Shown here: positions 8,644 through 53,685 of the stretch, one piece after another
Position numbering within the stretch: position 1 is the first letter of the stretch
Layout: every line of letters begins with the position of its first letter
Source: an uncultured Flavobacteriales bacterium
GTDB taxonomy: Bacteria; Bacteroidota; Bacteroidia; Flavobacteriales_G; Salibacteraceae
Length of the DNA stretch: 64,000 bases
Direction: 5' to 3'
Assembly: GCA_913020435.1 (NCBI GenBank)
Contig: CAJVZZ010000004.1
Location: 1-64,000 of the forward strand
Notes under the pieces: model-generated
The model's input: the letters and a program-made list of their open reading frames with translations, nothing else
What the model was told of the DNA's origin: nothing
Database searches by the model: none
Position numbers and translations under genes: made by a program

Positions 8644-9783
8644 TTATAGAATTTGATTAATTATTTGGTAAAACATTCCAATGCCAGTTTCTGTAATTTC
8701 ATCTGGATAATCATAATCGGGATTGTGCAGGGCAGGATTGCTCGTTCCTGATCCTACTCCAAACATGGCTCCCATATATTGTTGCGTAAAAAGACCGAAA
8801 TCTTCACCCCATCTAAATGGGTACGCTCTTTCGTTAAGCTCATAACTGTTTTTTTCGGCTGCATTTCTAATCAGTTGCACTGCATCTGGATGATTTATGT
8901 TGGCATGGAAGACTTGAGTCCACGAAATATCGGCCAATAGTTGATTGGTTTTACAAGTTTTTTCTATAAAAGCTACAATCTCGTTACTTCTCTGTGTCAT
9001 CAAATCTGTTGACCAACTTCTTATCGTAAAATGTACTTCGCCATAACCAGCAGAAATCCCATAAGCTAAATCGCCCAAAGTGGCGAATATGGGAGTCATT
9101 AAGAAGAAATCCTGCTCTTCAGGTTTGTTGTGCGTAATATCATTGGCAAAGGCAAATATTTGAGACATTGCCATACTTGGGTTGTACCCTTTTTCTGGTT
9201 CTGCTGCATGGGCAGTTTTACCTGTCATTTTTAGAATGATGCTCTTTACATTTCCGGTAAATTCATTTTCTTTTACAACTATTTGGTGGGTTTTATAACC
9301 TGGTAAATTGTGCAATGCGAATACGAAATCTATTTTTTCTTTTTGGAATTCTTTATCTTCTAATACCGCTTTGGCGCCCATACCATTTTCTTCTGCAGGC
9401 TGAAAAAGTAGGAGTACTTTTCCTCTAGCTATGGATTTTTCTGATAGGAGCATAGCTAAGCCTAATAAAATAGTGGTATGTCCATCGTGCCCACATTTGT
9501 GAGAAACTCCTTCGGTTTTTGATTTATGCTCAAAGTCATTTATTTCAACAATAGGTAAGGCATCGATATCGCCTCGAATCATTACGGTTGGTCCTGGCTT
9601 ATTGCTTTGAAAAGTGGAGATTACACCTGTTTTCCCAACTTTTTTAAAATCGCTTTCAGTTTCTTTTTCTAAGAATTGAAGAATACGTTTTTGAGTTTCG
9701 AATTCCTGCTCAGAAACCTCTGGGTTTGCATGCAACGTTCGCCGTACCTGTGCTAATTTATCCAACTGTTTTGAACTGAGCAT
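8644..9783 (-). CDS. M20 family metallo-amidohydrolase (N-acyl amino acid amidohydrolase type)
   Basis: This 379-residue zinc-dependent hydrolase belongs to the M20D branch (hippurate hydrolase, N-acetyl-L-aminoacyl deacetylase). Metal-binding and catalytic motifs are visible in order: RRTLHANPEVS near the N-terminus, RGDIDALP (about 70-77), the metal ligand motif KCGHDGHT (about 96-103), FQPAEENG with the catalytic Glu pair, a dimerisation insert with GKTAHAAEP, and the terminal LHNPDYDYPD with a further histidine. The enzyme would cut the acyl group from N-acylated amino acids or cleave small peptides in the cytoplasm. The start codon overlaps the end of the upstream sodium/solute symporter by 26 bases, strong evidence that the imported compound is its substrate. 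No signal peptide is present. Confidence 0.9.
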   Translation of the reverse strand: MLSSKQLDKLAQVRRTLHANPEVSEQEFETQKRILQFLEKETESDFKKVGKTGVISTFQSNKPGPTVMIRGDIDALPIVEINDFEHKSKTEGVSHKCGHDGHTTILLGLAMLLSEKSIARGKVLLLFQPAEENGMGAKAVLEDKEFQKEKIDFVFALHNLPGYKTHQIVVKENEFTGNVKSIILKMTGKTAHAAEPEKGYNPSMAMSQIFAFANDITHNKPEEQDFFLMTPIFATLGDLAYGISAGYGEVHFTIRSWSTDLMTQRSNEIVAFIEKTCKTNQLLADISWTQVFHANINHPDAVQLIRNAAEKNSYELNERAYPFRWGEDFGLFTQQYMGAMFGVGSGTSNPALHNPDYDYPDEITETGIGMFYQIINQIL

Positions 9784-11209
9784 TCGTTTTTGGGGTATTT
9801 TGAACGATTAAAAAAATAATTGCTGAGATAGAAATTCCGAAAAAATTGGCATCAATTTCCCAAGGCAATTGGGTGTCGAACAGAATTAATAGAAGAGTAG
9901 TGCTGCCACCAAATATCATCGATAACAGGGCGGCAGAGGAGTTGGGCTTTTTGTAAATCAAAGTACCCAATACAGGCACAAATAAGCCTGAAACCATAAA
10001 GGCATAAGAGTACAACATTAGATCCAGTACACTCGTCATTACTGTAGATAATGCGATTGCAATTACTCCAATAATAAACGTAATGAGTTGCGATTTTAAT
10101 ATGCTATGCTGTTCTTTGGTAGGCCTTATTTTATCTAAAATATCGGTGATTAAATTTCCACTAGCAGCCATCAAACAACTATCAGCGGTTGACATAATTG
10201 CTGAGAAATAGGCTGACATCATTAAGCCCATTAAACCAACCGGTAAAATATGACTTAACAGCAAGGGGAGACCTAGTTCTGGATCAAAAGCAGTATTGGC
10301 TGCAAAACCTATATCGGCAAACATTCCTTGCTCAAAAGCAACTCTAGAAAACAAGCCCAACAAAACACCCATAAAAGCCATTATTGGCCATTCAAATAGA
10401 CCGGCAATTCGCCATGCTTTTTTTGCTGTTTCAACGTCTTTACAAGCATAAATTCGCTGGTATAGCGTCATACCGATAAACCAGATGGGCACAATAGTAA
10501 TGAGCCAATTAAAAAACTGAATAAATCCAACGTTTCCCAATGAAAGGAAACTTTGCGGTAGATGATTCTGGAGTGCATCCCAGCCTCCAATGTGGACATA
10601 ACTTAGTGGAATGCCTATAAAAATGAGACCAACCATTAAAATTATCCACTGAATGGTATCGGTATAAATCACTGCTTTTATACCCCCAATTACGGTATAG
10701 ACTACTGCAATTATTCCCATCAATATCGCTGCATGATGAATAGAAAGTTCAGGGAAGGTAGCTGAAGCCAATTTTGCACCAGCTAATATTTGGGAGCTCG
10801 TAAAACCTACATAGCCAATTAAGGAAATGATGCCTGCCACGAGAGCAACGGTGGCATTATAATGAAAAGAGAGTGTTTCTGGAAAGGTAAGAAAATGGTG
10901 TTTTTTAGCTATGGGATAAATCTTAGGAATTAAAAACACTGCACTCAGCCAAGCCCCGATTAGCCCGGTAAGTAGCATCCAACTTCCCGATATTCCCATT
11001 GCAAAACCAAGACCACCCAAACCAATAGAAAAGCCTCCACCAACGTCGGTTGCAACTACTGAGAGGCCAATATGACCTGCCGACATAGAGCGACCTCCAA
11101 CAAAATAATCTTCTTTTGATTTGTTTTTGCGAAGAAAGTAAAATCCAATGCCGAGCATAAAAACGAGGTAACCAATAAAAATCGATAAATCGACGATATG
11201 AATTCCCAT
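9758..11209 (-). CDS. Sodium:solute symporter (SSS family)
   Basis: A 483-residue, highly hydrophobic protein with about 13 predicted membrane helices and the SSS (TC 2.A.21) pattern: a short periplasmic N-terminus, KNKSKEDYFVGGRSMS between helices 1 and 2, ATDVGGGFSIG in the unwound helix that binds sodium and substrate in relatives, and the helix with MSAYFSAIMSTADSCLMAAS, the second sodium-site helix. It should import a small organic solute, such as an amino acid, acylated amino acid or pantothenate-like compound, using the sodium gradient. Its 3-base gap to the acetyltransferase gene upstream and its overlap with the M20 gene place it in one operon with two racemases, so amino acid derivatives are the best guess for cargo. 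Confidence 0.9.
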   Translation of the reverse strand: MGIHIVDLSIFIGYLVFMLGIGFYFLRKNKSKEDYFVGGRSMSAGHIGLSVVATDVGGGFSIGLGGLGFAMGISGSWMLLTGLIGAWLSAVFLIPKIYPIAKKHHFLTFPETLSFHYNATVALVAGIISLIGYVGFTSSQILAGAKLASATFPELSIHHAAILMGIIAVVYTVIGGIKAVIYTDTIQWIILMVGLIFIGIPLSYVHIGGWDALQNHLPQSFLSLGNVGFIQFFNWLITIVPIWFIGMTLYQRIYACKDVETAKKAWRIAGLFEWPIMAFMGVLLGLFSRVAFEQGMFADIGFAANTAFDPELGLPLLLSHILPVGLMGLMMSAYFSAIMSTADSCLMAASGNLITDILDKIRPTKEQHSILKSQLITFIIGVIAIALSTVMTSVLDLMLYSYAFMVSGLFVPVLGTLIYKKPNSSAALLSMIFGGSTTLLLILFDTQLPWEIDANFFGISISAIIFLIVQNTPKTNAQFKTVG

Positions 11210-48616: not shown

Positions 48617-51259
48617 TTATTTTTTAATCAATACTTGTTCTGTGGTTTTAACGATATTTTTAACAACGCTATCCAATTCATTTGCTGAGGTCATTAGGTA
48701 CTTTGTAAACTCTTCTTTTTCAGCAGCTGATAAGGTCACACAATTCAATACCTCTATCAATCCCATTATGTTTGTTAATGGTGCGCGCACTTCATGCGAA
48801 TGTGTCCATGCAATTTGTTTTAGTTTTTCGTTTTGAGCTTCAATGGCCTTTATATAATTATAGCGTTCTGTAACGTCTGTTGCTAATACTACTTTAGCTT
48901 TTTTTCCTTTGTGCGATATTCCATGAGCTCGAAGATCGACAATGATTTCTTCCCCGTTTTTCATTTTATGCACATGCTCGCCAAAGAATTTGGGTCCTCC
49001 TTTTTGTGCTGAAAGTTTGAGAGATTCGTCTAATTTTAAGAATTCAGATTCTGGCCTTATTTCTCTTATGGTCATATTCAGAAATTCTTGGTAAGAATAT
49101 CCATAGCGTTCAATTGCAGCTTTATTAACATCCAGAAATTTCAAAGTAGCTATTTCGTAAATATACTTAGGCTGTGGGCTAAGGTGAAATAGATTAGAAT
49201 AGCTGAGTTCTGATTTTTTAAGCGCTTTTTCGGATTTAATACGGTCTGAAATATCTTGTCCTACACATTGTATTTCAGAAGGTTTTCCGTAAGTATCTTT
49301 AAGACATACAAAATCCCAAAGAGTAGTGAAAGTTTTTCCATCGCTGCTTGGTTTGTTGATTTCAATTTTAAACACCTTTTCAGGTTCTGCAATACATTTT
49401 TCTACTGTTTCTTTTGTTCTTTGATGGTGGTAGTCCAAAATTGATGAAAAATAGTTATTCCCCAATATTTTCCCATCAGGGTAAAGCCATCCAAATTCGT
49501 CAATAAATATTTTGTTTACATAGGTGTAGTTTAAATTTATGTCAGTTCGAATAACATAGTTAGTTTGTGATTCGGATAAACCTTTGTAATATGCTTTACT
49601 CTTTTTTAGTTTCTTTTCGACAAGTATACGCGCTGTTATATCTCTAGAGTTTGCCACTATTCCAACTATAGCTGAATCGTTCATAAGATCAGTTAAGACG
49701 GTTTCTAGCCAGCACCAAGATCCATTACCATGTTTAATTCTGTAAGGTTTAGGCGTGAGCTGTTTTTTAGTTTTTAATTTCAGAAGACTTTTAATAAACG
49801 CTTTTTTATCATTTGGATGAATAATATCAAAGTTATTTTTAGCAATTAATTCCGTCGGATTAATTGCTAAAATTTTTGCGGAAGAAGGACTTATGTATTT
49901 GATGTTGCCATCATAGTCCATAATTGTAATTAAATCAGATCCATTTTGAACAAGGCCTTTAAACCTACTTTCACTTCGTTCTACTTCAAGTTCGTTTTCT
50001 TTTTCAATAGTAATATCTAGAACAATCGAGTCCCAGATAGTACTGCCGTCCTCTGCGCGTATAGGGTTTCCAACACCTTTGAACCAACGAATGGTACCGT
50101 CTGCATTGTGATGGCGCCATTCCTGCTCCCAAAAGCTTAGTTCTTGCGCTGATTTCTGAATGGATTGTACGAGTACTTCTATATCTTCATTTTCAGTATT
50201 CCCCCAAATAAGCTGGCTATTTTTCATGACTTCTTCAGCAGAGAAGCCCCAAATATCTACAGCTCCTTCGCTTACCAATAGCAACTCGTCGCTACCATCT
50301 GGGTAGAGCTTGTAGCGGAAAACTACACCAGGAATATTATTCGTAATGGTTTTAAATTGAGTTTCAGTATTTCTGATTTCGGTAATGTCGACATTAATTC
50401 CTGCCATAAGTAAAGGCTTACCATTTGATGACCACCTTATAACCTGACCTCGGCTATGTATCCATACTATGTGTCCCTTTTTGTGTAAAAAGCGCAAATC
50501 AACCTCATAAAAGTCAGTTTTTTTCTCAAGATAGGCTGCAACTTGTTCATTTACAATTTTGATATCGTCTTGGTATAAAAGCTTTTCAAATTGATCAATG
50601 TTCAAAGAGTCGAGTTCATCAATAGAATAACCTAGTATTTCTGCGTAGCGTTCATTAATAGAAACTTTTCCATCGTTAAGGTTCCATTCCCATGTGCCTA
50701 AGTGGGTTGCATCAATAATATTATCAAAGTGCTTAGATTTAATTGTGAAGCTCTCTGTCATTTTTTTTAGAAGAAATCGGTCTTTACGATTTTCAAAAAA
50801 CTGCAATACTTGATCAGCCAATAATTTTAAAGTTTTCAATTGTTTTGGCTCGAGCTTTCGAGGTTTAGTATCGATTACGCAAAGCGTACCTAAAGCATTA
50901 CCCTCATTACTTACTAATGGTATTCCTGTATAAAAAACAATTTTAGGGTTTCCAGTAACGAGTGGATTGTCACTGAAGCGATAATCCTCCCTCGCATCTT
51001 CTACAATGAAAAACTGCAGAGGATCATTAATAGCATGGGCACAAAATGACTGCTCAATGGGCGTCTCGTTAATATCTAATCCATGATTTGATTTAAAGAA
51101 CTGCCGTTTGTCAGAAACAAGAGATACTAAGGAGATAGGGGTGTCACATATTAGAGCGGCTAGACTGGTTATATTATCGTATTTTTTTTCGGGCAGAGAG
51201 TCTAAAAGTTCCAGTGTATTGAGATCTTCAAGTCGTCTTTCTGCAAAAGGTTGGTGCAT
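48617..51259 (-). CDS. GAF/multi-PAS sensor protein with HisKA helix but no ATPase domain
   Basis: An 880-residue cytoplasmic sensor. The order is GAF-like domain (about 20-160, with IEQSFCAHAIND), five PAS domains near 175-300, 305-430, 435-555, 565-690 and 690-805, recognised by (E)SRFKGLVQNGSDLITI, YKGLSESQTNYVIRTD, and repeated D-I-T/S junctions. After a coiled coil comes the phospho-acceptor helix HSHEVRAPLTNIMGL (His822). The protein ends 58 residues after His822 without N, G1 or G2 boxes. Some Bacteroidota PAS proteins end this way, probably acting as dimerisation/signalling partners phosphorylated by another kinase or as diverged signal converters. It looks complete, with its own stop, not truncated by a frameshift. 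Confidence 0.85.
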   Translation of the reverse strand: MHQPFAERRLEDLNTLELLDSLPEKKYDNITSLAALICDTPISLVSLVSDKRQFFKSNHGLDINETPIEQSFCAHAINDPLQFFIVEDAREDYRFSDNPLVTGNPKIVFYTGIPLVSNEGNALGTLCVIDTKPRKLEPKQLKTLKLLADQVLQFFENRKDRFLLKKMTESFTIKSKHFDNIIDATHLGTWEWNLNDGKVSINERYAEILGYSIDELDSLNIDQFEKLLYQDDIKIVNEQVAAYLEKKTDFYEVDLRFLHKKGHIVWIHSRGQVIRWSSNGKPLLMAGINVDITEIRNTETQFKTITNNIPGVVFRYKLYPDGSDELLLVSEGAVDIWGFSAEEVMKNSQLIWGNTENEDIEVLVQSIQKSAQELSFWEQEWRHHNADGTIRWFKGVGNPIRAEDGSTIWDSIVLDITIEKENELEVERSESRFKGLVQNGSDLITIMDYDGNIKYISPSSAKILAINPTELIAKNNFDIIHPNDKKAFIKSLLKLKTKKQLTPKPYRIKHGNGSWCWLETVLTDLMNDSAIVGIVANSRDITARILVEKKLKKSKAYYKGLSESQTNYVIRTDINLNYTYVNKIFIDEFGWLYPDGKILGNNYFSSILDYHHQRTKETVEKCIAEPEKVFKIEINKPSSDGKTFTTLWDFVCLKDTYGKPSEIQCVGQDISDRIKSEKALKKSELSYSNLFHLSPQPKYIYEIATLKFLDVNKAAIERYGYSYQEFLNMTIREIRPESEFLKLDESLKLSAQKGGPKFFGEHVHKMKNGEEIIVDLRAHGISHKGKKAKVVLATDVTERYNYIKAIEAQNEKLKQIAWTHSHEVRAPLTNIMGLIEVLNCVTLSAAEKEEFTKYLMTSANELDSVVKNIVKTTEQVLIKK

Positions 51260-51621
51260 AGATGGAGTGTTTTTAGCTCTTTAAAACTGCAATTTAACGA
51301 AAAAATACGCTTTTCAACGATTTTATTTGCGAATCCATCAGAATTATATGTGACAATTAGTGGATTGGTTATTAGTTGAAGGTGGGGGTTTCAGCAACTC
51401 TAAGAAATAGTGTCTGCTGTTTTGATTGAATGCGGCACTTTATTTATAATTATGCTCGATTTCACTCTCACTTATAGGTAAGATCGAGGATTAATTATTC
51501 AAGTAGGGTTTCCTTTTCTGAATTTTAAAACAATAAAGTTGAACTTTCAATTTGCTTTTATAAAAATAAGTCGATTAGTCAATCGATACGATTATTGAAA
51601 AGCCTAATTCCGTTTTTGTAA
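51260..51621. other. Gene-free stretch
   Basis: Only short, non-protein-like frames are present on both strands. It contains the leader of the PAS sensor gene; I could not place a consensus promoter. The right part is the 3' side of the photolyase gene. Confidence 0.4.
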
Positions 51622-52710
51622 TTACTTGAGTTCCTTATTACACTTTTTCCAAAATGCGAAAAAAGAAGGAAAGAATCCTTTGACAGAAAACATCCAATCT
51701 CGTTCGTCTTTAATTCCTGTAAAATGGAGGTTAGTTGGATGTTCTTTAAAAATTAAATTTGATTCCTTTGTTTGTTGTTTAAGTTCTATGAATTCACCTA
51801 CAAAAACTTGAATATCTTCAATATTTCTGGACAATGAAATTATAAAATCAAGCGGTTTTTGAGCAATAGGATATTTAGTAAAAAAGCTAGGCTCCAAAAT
51901 CAAAACACGATTTACGCCTTCGTCTTTTCTCCATTCAGGGTCAAGATTATAATAGGTATATATACAGGTTGAAATTTGAGTGTTTAGCACTAAATCCTTG
52001 TTGACTGGTAGCTCAGTTTTTAACTCGAAATTTTCTGTTATTTTTAATATTTCAGGAGTTTCAAGTGTCTCAAATTGTTCGTAGCCTAAGTCTAAAAAAG
52101 TATCGGATTGATCACTTTCAAAGAAGTTGTTTATGTTTTCTTGGTTTGCGTAATATTTTTTGTTGGCATTTGCGCCTGCAACCCATTGCCAGCTTAAGGC
52201 ATTACTTGCCCAGTCTCCATCCAATAAATTTGCATACAGCCATTGCGCAGGATTTAACCAATGTGAATGACCAATGTTACATACAATAGAGGCTACATAC
52301 ATGCGCATGTGATTGTGCATGTAGCCATAGTTATGTAGCTCTTGAATTGCTTTATCTATTGCGTTAATACCCGATTGAGCTTTAAGTATCGCAGTTGGAA
52401 CTTGATGATTTGACACGTCGGATTGATTATGTTTTAAATCGCGATCAATTGCATTTCCTTTTTCAATCCATACTTGCTGCCAATAGTCTCGCCAAGCTAA
52501 TTCTTGAATCAACTTTACCGAGTGAAAATAGGGTAGGTCCAAGTCAAGGATATGTTCGAATACCATTTTAGTTGAGATCACTCCTCTAGCTATATAGGGA
52601 CTTAATCGAGTTACCGCTCCAGATTTATGGTTTCTAGAAGTTCCGTATTTTTTTGGATCGATTGATAGAATACGCTCTTGGATAGATTTTAAATCTGTTG
52701 GGAAACTCAT
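51622..52710 (-). CDS. Photolyase/cryptochrome FAD-binding domain protein with C-terminal alpha/beta domain
   Basis: A 362-residue protein that begins directly with the FAD-binding helical domain of photolyases: SRNHKSGAVTRLSPYIARGVI (shown in parts SGAVTRLSPYI), LIQELAWRDYWQQVW and DGDWASNALSWQWVAGANANK, the segment that cradles FAD. The normal N-terminal antenna domain is absent. Instead, after about residue 245, a small alpha/beta region follows: RVLILEPSFFTKYPI, PLDFIISLSRNIEDIQVFVG and LIFKEHPTNLH, which has Rossmann-like strands reminiscent of that antenna domain. This suggests a circularly permuted or reduced photolyase (inference). Such proteins are known only loosely in Bacteroidota. 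Overlaps the DUF2805 gene by 4 bases. Confidence 0.82.
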   Translation of the reverse strand: MSFPTDLKSIQERILSIDPKKYGTSRNHKSGAVTRLSPYIARGVISTKMVFEHILDLDLPYFHSVKLIQELAWRDYWQQVWIEKGNAIDRDLKHNQSDVSNHQVPTAILKAQSGINAIDKAIQELHNYGYMHNHMRMYVASIVCNIGHSHWLNPAQWLYANLLDGDWASNALSWQWVAGANANKKYYANQENINNFFESDQSDTFLDLGYEQFETLETPEILKITENFELKTELPVNKDLVLNTQISTCIYTYYNLDPEWRKDEGVNRVLILEPSFFTKYPIAQKPLDFIISLSRNIEDIQVFVGEFIELKQQTKESNLIFKEHPTNLHFTGIKDERDWMFSVKGFFPSFFAFWKKCNKELK

Positions 52711-52985
52711 CGTTTGGTAATTTTATTGTTTGAAATACCGCGCTGACGCGAACATTTGAATCGAGTCATTTCAGTATTGCGCTTTTTTAGATGTTTACTG
52801 CTTACTCCGCTGTTCACTCTTTTCCTCCATAATCGAAATGATTTTGGTTTTAGTGTGCTGCGCATTACTTGGATAACCTCGTTTTCTTTTAATCCAAATT
52901 GAAAATCAATTGCCTCGAAAGGAGTGCGATCTTCCCAGGCCATTTCAATAATTCGATCGTGATCTCTTTCTGAAAATTCCGTCAT
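52707..52985 (-). CDS. TIGR03643/DUF2805 family protein
   Basis: A 92-residue basic protein starting at ATG 52985 (MTEFSERDHDRIIEMAWEDR); an upstream TTG frame from 53006 is less likely. It matches DUF2805/TIGR03643 with IIEMAWEDRTPFEAIDFQFG and VIQVMRSTLKP, with a C-terminal Arg/Lys-rich part. It could be DNA- or RNA-binding, since the helical core resembles a helix-turn-helix. In many genomes it is linked to photolyase genes, as here, where the stop overlaps the photolyase ATG by 4 bases. Function unknown. Confidence 0.9.
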   Translation of the reverse strand: MTEFSERDHDRIIEMAWEDRTPFEAIDFQFGLKENEVIQVMRSTLKPKSFRLWRKRVNSGVSSKHLKKRNTEMTRFKCSRQRGISNNKITKR

Positions 52986-53154
52986 AAAGTTAAAGACAGA
53001 TTCCAATGTGATTTGTTTGATTGTTTGTGCAGATTAATTAATGAAATGCTGCATAAATCGGCTTGAGACGAGATAATTTATGATTCAGGATTTTTGTTTT
53101 TTTACACTAGGTGATTTGCGAATAAACCGCATTTGGTTCAATGGGAATTTCGTG

Positions 53155-53685
53155 TTACTTCAATTCTAAGTTATCTAACAATAATTTAAAGTTTTCCTCT
53201 TTTTTGTTTCCAATCAGAAACATGATTTCTTCTATGTAATCACTAGAAAAATTCGGTTGGTCCAACTTTCGCCCTCTATAACCGGGGTACATATCTTTTA
53301 ATGGAATTTCTATTTCTTGCCATTTTCCAGAGGTGGAAAAGGTTGTTATGTAAGAATAGTAATCTTTGGAATTAGTTTTTACTCTAAACTGATATTGTTT
53401 GCCATCACCTTTAAGTTTAAGAACCACTTTAGAGTATTTCTTAGTTTCAATTTTTGGGAATTTATAGCGCAGCGATGAGAATCCGCCGTTATTTTCTAAT
53501 GAGATTTTTCCTTCAAAAACACCAAAACCATCTTTACTTAATTTAAAAGTGCCTGTTGACCTTCCGCCCATCACTCCATCGACTACAATTACCCAATCTT
53601 CAACATTGGATTTTTTGTTGAAATCAAAAATTACTGCCAAGCTCATTGAGGAAGATAATATCATAAGACAAATAAAGTATTTCAT
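53155..53685 (-). CDS. CIA30 family exported protein
   Basis: A 176-residue protein with a signal peptide (KYFICLMILSSSMSLA) and a CIA30 (complex I intermediate-associated protein 30-like) beta-sandwich, seen in FDFNKKSNVEDW, VVDGVMGGRSTG, NNGGFSSLRYKF and PLKDMYPGYRGRKL. In bacteria the family is a galactose-binding-like fold of uncertain function often near SDR or photolyase genes in light-related clusters. It lies between the SDR/DUF2867 gene (32-base gap) and the DUF2805 gene (about 170-base gap), all on the minus strand. Confidence 0.88.
   Translation of the reverse strand: MKYFICLMILSSSMSLAVIFDFNKKSNVEDWVIVVDGVMGGRSTGTFKLSKDGFGVFEGKISLENNGGFSSLRYKFPKIETKKYSKVVLKLKGDGKQYQFRVKTNSKDYYSYITTFSTSGKWQEIEIPLKDMYPGYRGRKLDQPNFSSDYIEEIMFLIGNKKEENFKLLLDNLELK

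Follow-up and report, generated by a model that had tools for sequence, protein, structure and literature searches.

The photolyase locus

Within the window, the whole 64,000 nt stretch of DNA analyzed here, the gene under study encodes a photolyase-like protein in which the catalytic domain comes first and a probable antenna-type domain second, the reverse of the order in ordinary photolyases (Table 1). Its ATG start codon overlaps by 4 nt (ATGA) with the stop of the upstream gene. Only four stop-free codons precede this ATG and, consequently, no in-frame N-terminal antenna domain is hidden upstream. Scans of positions 51250-53200 for promoters and terminators yielded scores no better than those of shuffled sequences. 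Just downstream, at 48617-51259, lies a gene for an 880-aa GAF/multi-PAS protein with a HisKA-like end, for which Pfam reports no ATPase domain.

The sole Pfam match of the photolyase is FAD_binding_7 at residues 68-190 (E 6.7e-23; score 81.6 bits, cut-off 27). In the NCBIfam scan, the DASH and class I photolyase models matched far under their cut-offs, the DASH model TIGR02765 reaching 71.6 bits, below its cut-off of 317.05. Sequence matches of the protein in the PDB were photolyases and cryptochromes and spanned approximately residues 20-190. The whole protein was modeled with a pLDDT of 96.5 and a pTM of 0.93.

Table 1. Features of the reversed-order photolyase locus. Residue numbers refer to the encoded protein; conservation is given over the 77-row alignment.
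Feature	Position	Strand	Basis
Probable NewPHL-type photolyase gene, reversed domain order, 362 aa	51622..52710	-	ORF, FAD_binding_7, structure model, relatives
Upstream gene TIGR03643/DUF2805, 4-nt overlap, frequent neighbor	52707..53006	-	115.4 bits, cut-off 66.55
Catalytic FAD-binding helical domain, residues 1-224 (C-terminal in ordinary photolyases)	52039..52710	-	VIA structural alignment
Linker between domains, residues 225-245	51976..52038	-	Model mostly without helix or strand; boundaries are our reading
Antenna-type alpha/beta domain (predicted), residues 246-362	51625..51975	-	Model of residues 234-362, structural match, hhalign
E70 to W73, aligned with A. nidulans E283, W286	52492..52503	-	77/77 conserved
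V99, aligned with A. nidulans W314	52414..52416	-	V 59/77, I 13/77
N133 to M137, aligned with A. nidulans N349, M353	52300..52314	-	N 77/77, M 74/77
W151, aligned with A. nidulans W367	52258..52260	-	77/77
N170, aligned with A. nidulans N386	52201..52203	-	77/77
W174, aligned with A. nidulans W390	52189..52191	-	77/77

Relatives and distribution

A match of some sort was found in 100 of 149 related genomes and a full-length relative, with nearly the whole protein covered and E at or below 7.5e-78, in 21 of them (own genome included in both counts). Among the matches listed, the others were partial matches to ordinary photolyases, mostly of 430-500 aa. A profile search of genome contigs with a 21-row alignment returned at least 551 relatives in at least 594 pattern matches, of which the best 80 were kept. 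All of these 80 loci encode proteins of 361-381 aa without an N-terminal extension domain, shorter than the 388-457 aa of the alphaproteobacterial and Deinococcus relatives retrieved. Since full-length relatives exist in 21 of the 149 genomes and at 80 of the 80 kept loci, a chance ORF can be dismissed. We also considered a mutational loss of the N-terminus from an ordinary photolyase and rejected it, as this part is absent from all relatives too. An alignment of 77 rows (A2), consisting of the window protein and 76 of the 80 loci (L039, L046, L059, and L084 were left out), exhibits conserved blocks in both halves of the protein.

According to their record titles, the 80 kept loci belong mostly to Bacteroidota, with other phyla in a few cases. 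Four loci from metagenome-assembled genomes titled Gammaproteobacteria, Rhodobacteraceae, Verrucomicrobia, and Opitutaceae (L040, L053, L054, and L090) carry Bacteroidota-like copies with 52-58% identity, which reflect either mislabeled bins or gene transfer. When an alphaproteobacterial relative served as the query in a phylum-wide search, the matches were mainly ordinary photolyases and further members of the window protein's family, so that the range of phyla sampled was not extended. A scan of viral contigs retrieved only three ordinary photolyases with 27-28% identity to the catalytic part.

Catalytic domain and active-site residues

The initial annotation, made from the sequence alone, had placed the FAD-binding helical domain first and quoted two motifs from it. 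Both are present, SGAVTRLSPYI at residues 30-40 and DGDWASNALSWQW at residues 164-176, and the placement is borne out by structural alignment (VIA), in which residues 1-224 match the entire catalytic domain of solved photolyases: they align with residues 196-463 of Escherichia coli photolyase 1dnp (Z 15.9, rmsd 3.0, 218 residues aligned) and with the solved photolyase 1iqr (Z 16.1).

Active-site residues were mapped by sequence alignment to the Anacystis nidulans photolyase 1owl, and their conservation was assessed over the 77 rows. In the A. nidulans enzyme, we take E283 and W286 (here E70 and W73) as well as W392, which aligns with the invariant W176, to be contact residues for the cyclobutane pyrimidine dimer (CPD). 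The pair N349/M353 (here N133/M137) is assumed to be of the CPD type, as opposed to the His pair of 6-4 photolyases, and N386 (here N170) presumably adjoins the flavin N5. The first, second, and third tryptophans of the electron-transfer chain are taken to be W390, W367, and W314, respectively. The first two correspond to W174 and W151, and the third is replaced by V99, so that the chain is a dyad (W174, W151) and the triad is incomplete. No Trp is present among the residues listed for the V99 column, which is not one of the Trp-rich columns of the 77 rows. W157 was also evaluated as the second tryptophan of the chain and ruled out, as the alignment puts W367 at W151. A cysteine cluster was not found in the 77 rows: Cys occurs in at least 20 rows at five columns and in more than 60 rows only at 144 and 357.

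These residues bear on two alternative functions. The lack of a cysteine cluster in the Bacteroidota family and the CPD-type Asn and Met at positions presumably occupied by His in 6-4 photolyases make it extremely improbable that the protein is a 6-4 photolyase. This activity was suggested by Haney et al. for the Fe-S proteins Phr4/5 and Phr6, and the domain order is the same in Phr6 as described in the available part of PMC9426592. A cryptochrome-like sensor of blue light, no longer capable of DNA repair, would fit the Trp dyad, which implies poor photoreduction (PMC8948257, in excerpt), the presence of three other photolyase-family genes in the genome, including the class I gene L001, and the PAS/GAF sensor protein encoded just downstream. 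The residues aligned with CPD contacts are, however, kept in 74 to 77 of the 77 rows, the PAS/GAF gene is not among the recurring neighbors in relatives, and described NewPHLs repair CPDs (PMC13274461, in the part available), which renders a sensor quite improbable.

A probable antenna-type fold at the C-terminus

For the C-terminal part, the initial annotation had expected a resemblance to the photolyase antenna domain, which structure prediction and Foldseek could establish and an unrelated fold would contradict. Modeled alone, residues 234-362 gave a pLDDT of 92.6. Foldseek itself retrieved no significant match in the PDB (best E 0.11) or BFVD, and its ranking put other alpha/beta proteins first. 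When its top 1000 PDB chains were re-aligned to the model (998 aligned, 50 rows displayed), photolyases or cryptochromes occupied the first 13 ranks and a total of 38 of the 50 displayed rows, the best partner being residues 2-158 of the Synechococcus elongatus 6-4 photolyase 8ijy with a middling Z of 7.3 (rmsd 2.4, 117 of 129 residues aligned). The photolyase and cryptochrome rows align over 114-119 of the 129 residues, with the last helix included in nearly all of them, whereas the remaining 12 displayed rows align over 81-94 residues only. The partner region in nearly all photolyase rows is the N-terminal 150-180 residues; row 5 reaches 296 at an rmsd of 6.3. The domain also includes a helix that comes after the antenna domain in ordinary photolyases. 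As Z values below 8 may reflect a common arrangement, the assignment of an antenna fold rests on consistency and coverage and not on Z alone. The expected resemblance was thus recovered by the model and its re-alignment, in which antenna domains and not an unrelated fold cover the C-terminal domain, while the Foldseek search itself did not reveal it.

One profile comparison points in the same direction. The profile of the Bacteroidota C-terminal domains matched the class I antenna domain in hhalign with an E of 0.0033 (probability 9.8) and in the expected register, and the score of 24.55 exceeded all 60 column shuffles (highest 19.19). Matches to the alphaproteobacterial, Deinococcus, and L4-type antenna profiles were weak (E 0.28, 0.14, and 0.24, respectively), and the observed scores were reached by shuffles in 1 of 60 cases for L2, 3 of 60 for Deinococcus, 26 of 60 for L4, and 6 of 60 for the alphaproteobacterial profile, so that these four comparisons did not clear the shuffles. 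For calibration, even the antenna domains of class I and L4, each located at the N-terminus of its photolyase, match each other with an E of just 0.023. A Pfam scan of the 77 C-terminal domains revealed scattered chance matches only and no antenna family. Threonyl-tRNA synthetase, which appeared as a candidate relative of the domain in a PDB sequence profile search, was rejected (E 1.4).

The antenna domain is more readily recognized in the reversed-order relatives from Deinococcus. The 457-aa protein of Deinococcus psychrotolerans has a C-terminal match to PF00875 with an E of 0.001, which improves to 7.8e-5 for the piece scanned alone; the other E value obtained for the Deinococcus C-terminal pieces was 2.4e-4. 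None of these matches reached 26.6 bits, the curated cut-off. In hhalign, a profile built from four C-terminal domains of Deinococcus matched the class I antenna with an E of 1.2e-9 and a probability of 96. No PF00875 match was obtained for the four alphaproteobacterial reversed-order proteins scanned. In Deinococcus sp. QL22 (L171:1336-2627), the catalytic and antenna-type domains are encoded by two ORFs with a 4-nt overlap, representing a frameshift or a true split, and this arrangement resembles the split Phr4/Phr5 of marine Synechococcus.

A fusion of the photolyase catalytic domain to an unrelated Rossmann/USP-like alpha/beta domain would explain why Foldseek returns nothing significant and places other alpha/beta proteins on top, why Pfam and PDB sequence matches are missing, and why universal stress proteins reach a Z of up to 5.8. 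Such a fusion appears improbable, however, given the predominance of photolyase antenna domains among the re-aligned structures and their greater coverage, the Deinococcus relatives with the same domain order and an antenna domain recognizable by sequence, and the alignment to the class I antenna profile in the expected register above every shuffle. An antenna-type fold of the C-terminal domain is therefore supported, as judged from the structure model.

Phylogeny of the reversed-order photolyases

With the FAD-domain profile, the alphaproteobacterial and Deinococcus reversed-order proteins scored 105-154 bits, class I photolyases 65-96 bits, and the genome's other two photolyase types (L2 and L4) 22-42 bits. 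In a 41-row tree, calculated without six class I rows (L026, L028, L034, L126, L161, and L174), the reversed-order rows lie away from class I and L2, as do the L4 rows (PF04244 type), which have long branches. After removal of the long branches of L4 and L032, a branch with an SH-aLRT of 100 separates all 24 reversed-order rows from the rest. With the L4 rows included, the tree does not resolve the reversed-order clade and the AU test does not reject it (p-AU 0.448). The Bacteroidota clade groups with the alphaproteobacterial and Deinococcus reversed-order proteins, none of those rows being a characterized NewPHL. These results are compatible with a single origin of the reversed domain order, which may have arisen by circular permutation or through a separate fusion.

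Gene neighborhood

Clustering of the ORFs at the 80 loci identified an L4-type photolyase in at least 51, TIGR03643 in at least 46, an L2-type photolyase in at least 33, and a flavin reductase (PF01613) in at least 26. These counts are lower bounds, as loci end at contig ends. In all 45 loci having both clustered ORFs, TIGR03643 is located no more than 300 nt upstream of the photolyase gene. Across L035-L114, the order within a few kb is TIGR03643, the reversed-order photolyase, an L2-type photolyase and/or a flavin reductase (PF01613), and an L4-type photolyase (PF04244), with varying completeness. In the window's own genome, the L2- and PF04244-type photolyase genes are adjacent to each other on another contig (C16, approximately 8880-10903), apart from the gene in the window.

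Co-occurrence with DASH photolyases

NewPHL-type proteins are said to stand in for DASH proteins, an idea reportedly put forward by Emmerich and colleagues in 2020. DASH genes above the TIGR02765 cut-off were found in 37 of the 149 genomes. They are present in two of the 21 genomes with a reversed-order photolyase compared to 35 of the 79 genomes that have only other photolyases (Fisher p 0.004; kinship is ignored in this and the following Fisher tests). Within the window's family, DASH occurs in one of 13 genomes with the gene and in nine of 19 without it (p 0.024); outside this family, the numbers are one of eight and 26 of 60 (p 0.13). The contrast is weaker when all genomes are considered (two of 21 against 35 of 128, p 0.10). 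The DASH contrast supports the idea that reversed-order photolyases replace DASH proteins.

Discussion

The reversed-order photolyase is a real and well conserved protein that is widespread in Bacteroidota, and the arrangement itself has already been published for NewPHL/short photolyase-like (SPL) and Phr6 proteins. The published descriptions were available in part. In PMC13274461, NewPHLs are equated with SPLs and described as having an inverted topology and repairing CPDs in single-stranded DNA, with four alphaproteobacterial examples given. SPLs are described as being without an N-terminal domain (PMC9649867, citing Xu et al., 2021; PMC9178010 likewise cites Xu et al., 2021 for SPLs) and as a possible origin of the photolyase family (PMC9498864); NewPHL is also mentioned in PMC12083526. 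A Trp dyad is reported for the NewPHL of Dinoroseobacter shibae (PMC8948257). Phr4/5 and Phr6 with reversed domain order, as well as Phr7 with a C-terminal Z-domain, are presented in PMC9426592, which cites Emmerich et al. (2020). In the titles and passages covered by our literature search, we encountered no description of a Bacteroidota clade of reversed-order photolyases.

Going by these partial descriptions, the window protein shares with NewPHL/SPL proteins the N-terminal catalytic and C-terminal small alpha/beta domain (inverted topology), the absence of an N-terminal antenna domain, and the Trp dyad of the D. shibae NewPHL (PMC8948257). It differs in that the Bacteroidota proteins form a clade of their own in the tree, separate from their alphaproteobacterial and Deinococcus counterparts, and carry no Fe-S cysteines. 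Phr4/Phr5 and Phr6 of marine Synechococcus and Cyanobium likewise have the reverse order, in one gene or two adjoining ORFs, but possess Fe-S cluster cysteines that are absent from the Bacteroidota family (PMC9426592). Phr7 of Prochlorococcus, which has no Fe-S cysteines and in which a short atypical photolyase domain (Z-domain) comes after the FAD domain (PMC9426592), is likened to the window protein by description only and belongs to another phylum. Class I CPD photolyases (1owl, 1dnp, and L001 of the same genome) have the catalytic fold and CPD-contact residues in common with the protein, whereas their antenna domain is N-terminal and longer and their Trp chain is a triad. Taken together, sequence and structure model indicate that the protein is very probably a Bacteroidota CPD photolyase of the NewPHL/SPL class, as assigned from the published description of that class.

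As such a photolyase, the protein would hold FAD in its N-terminal helical domain, as suggested by the fold and the conserved residues. Blue light would excite the reduced FAD, and transfer of an electron to a CPD flipped into the pocket, where E70, W73, N133, M137, and W176 are putative contacts, would split the dimer. Oxidized FAD might be re-reduced via the two-tryptophan chain of W174 and W151. The antenna-type domain, moved behind the catalytic domain and shortened, would probably act as a lid or scaffold and not as a strong light harvester. A preference for single-stranded DNA and a replacement of DASH proteins may be envisaged as well. A further-reaching scenario treats the Bacteroidota clade as a separate subclass, whose antenna-type domain has been shortened to approximately 100 residues, has diverged so far that its sequence is hardly recognizable, has lost its chromophore, and has become a lid. 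Together with TIGR03643, the flavin reductase, and the L2- and L4-type (6-4-type) photolyases, it would form a conserved photorepair cluster, in which the flavin reductase would make up for the weak Trp dyad by supplying reduced flavin. We regard this scenario as rather doubtful.

Reversed-order photolyases, described from Alphaproteobacteria and cyanobacteria in the cited papers as far as these were available, are thus common in Bacteroidota too, where family models recognize only their FAD-binding domain. The "missing" antenna domain of these proteins would be an antenna fold at the opposite end, which bears on the claim of Xu et al. (2021), as cited in the partially available sources, that SPLs are without this domain and close to the photolyase family's origin.
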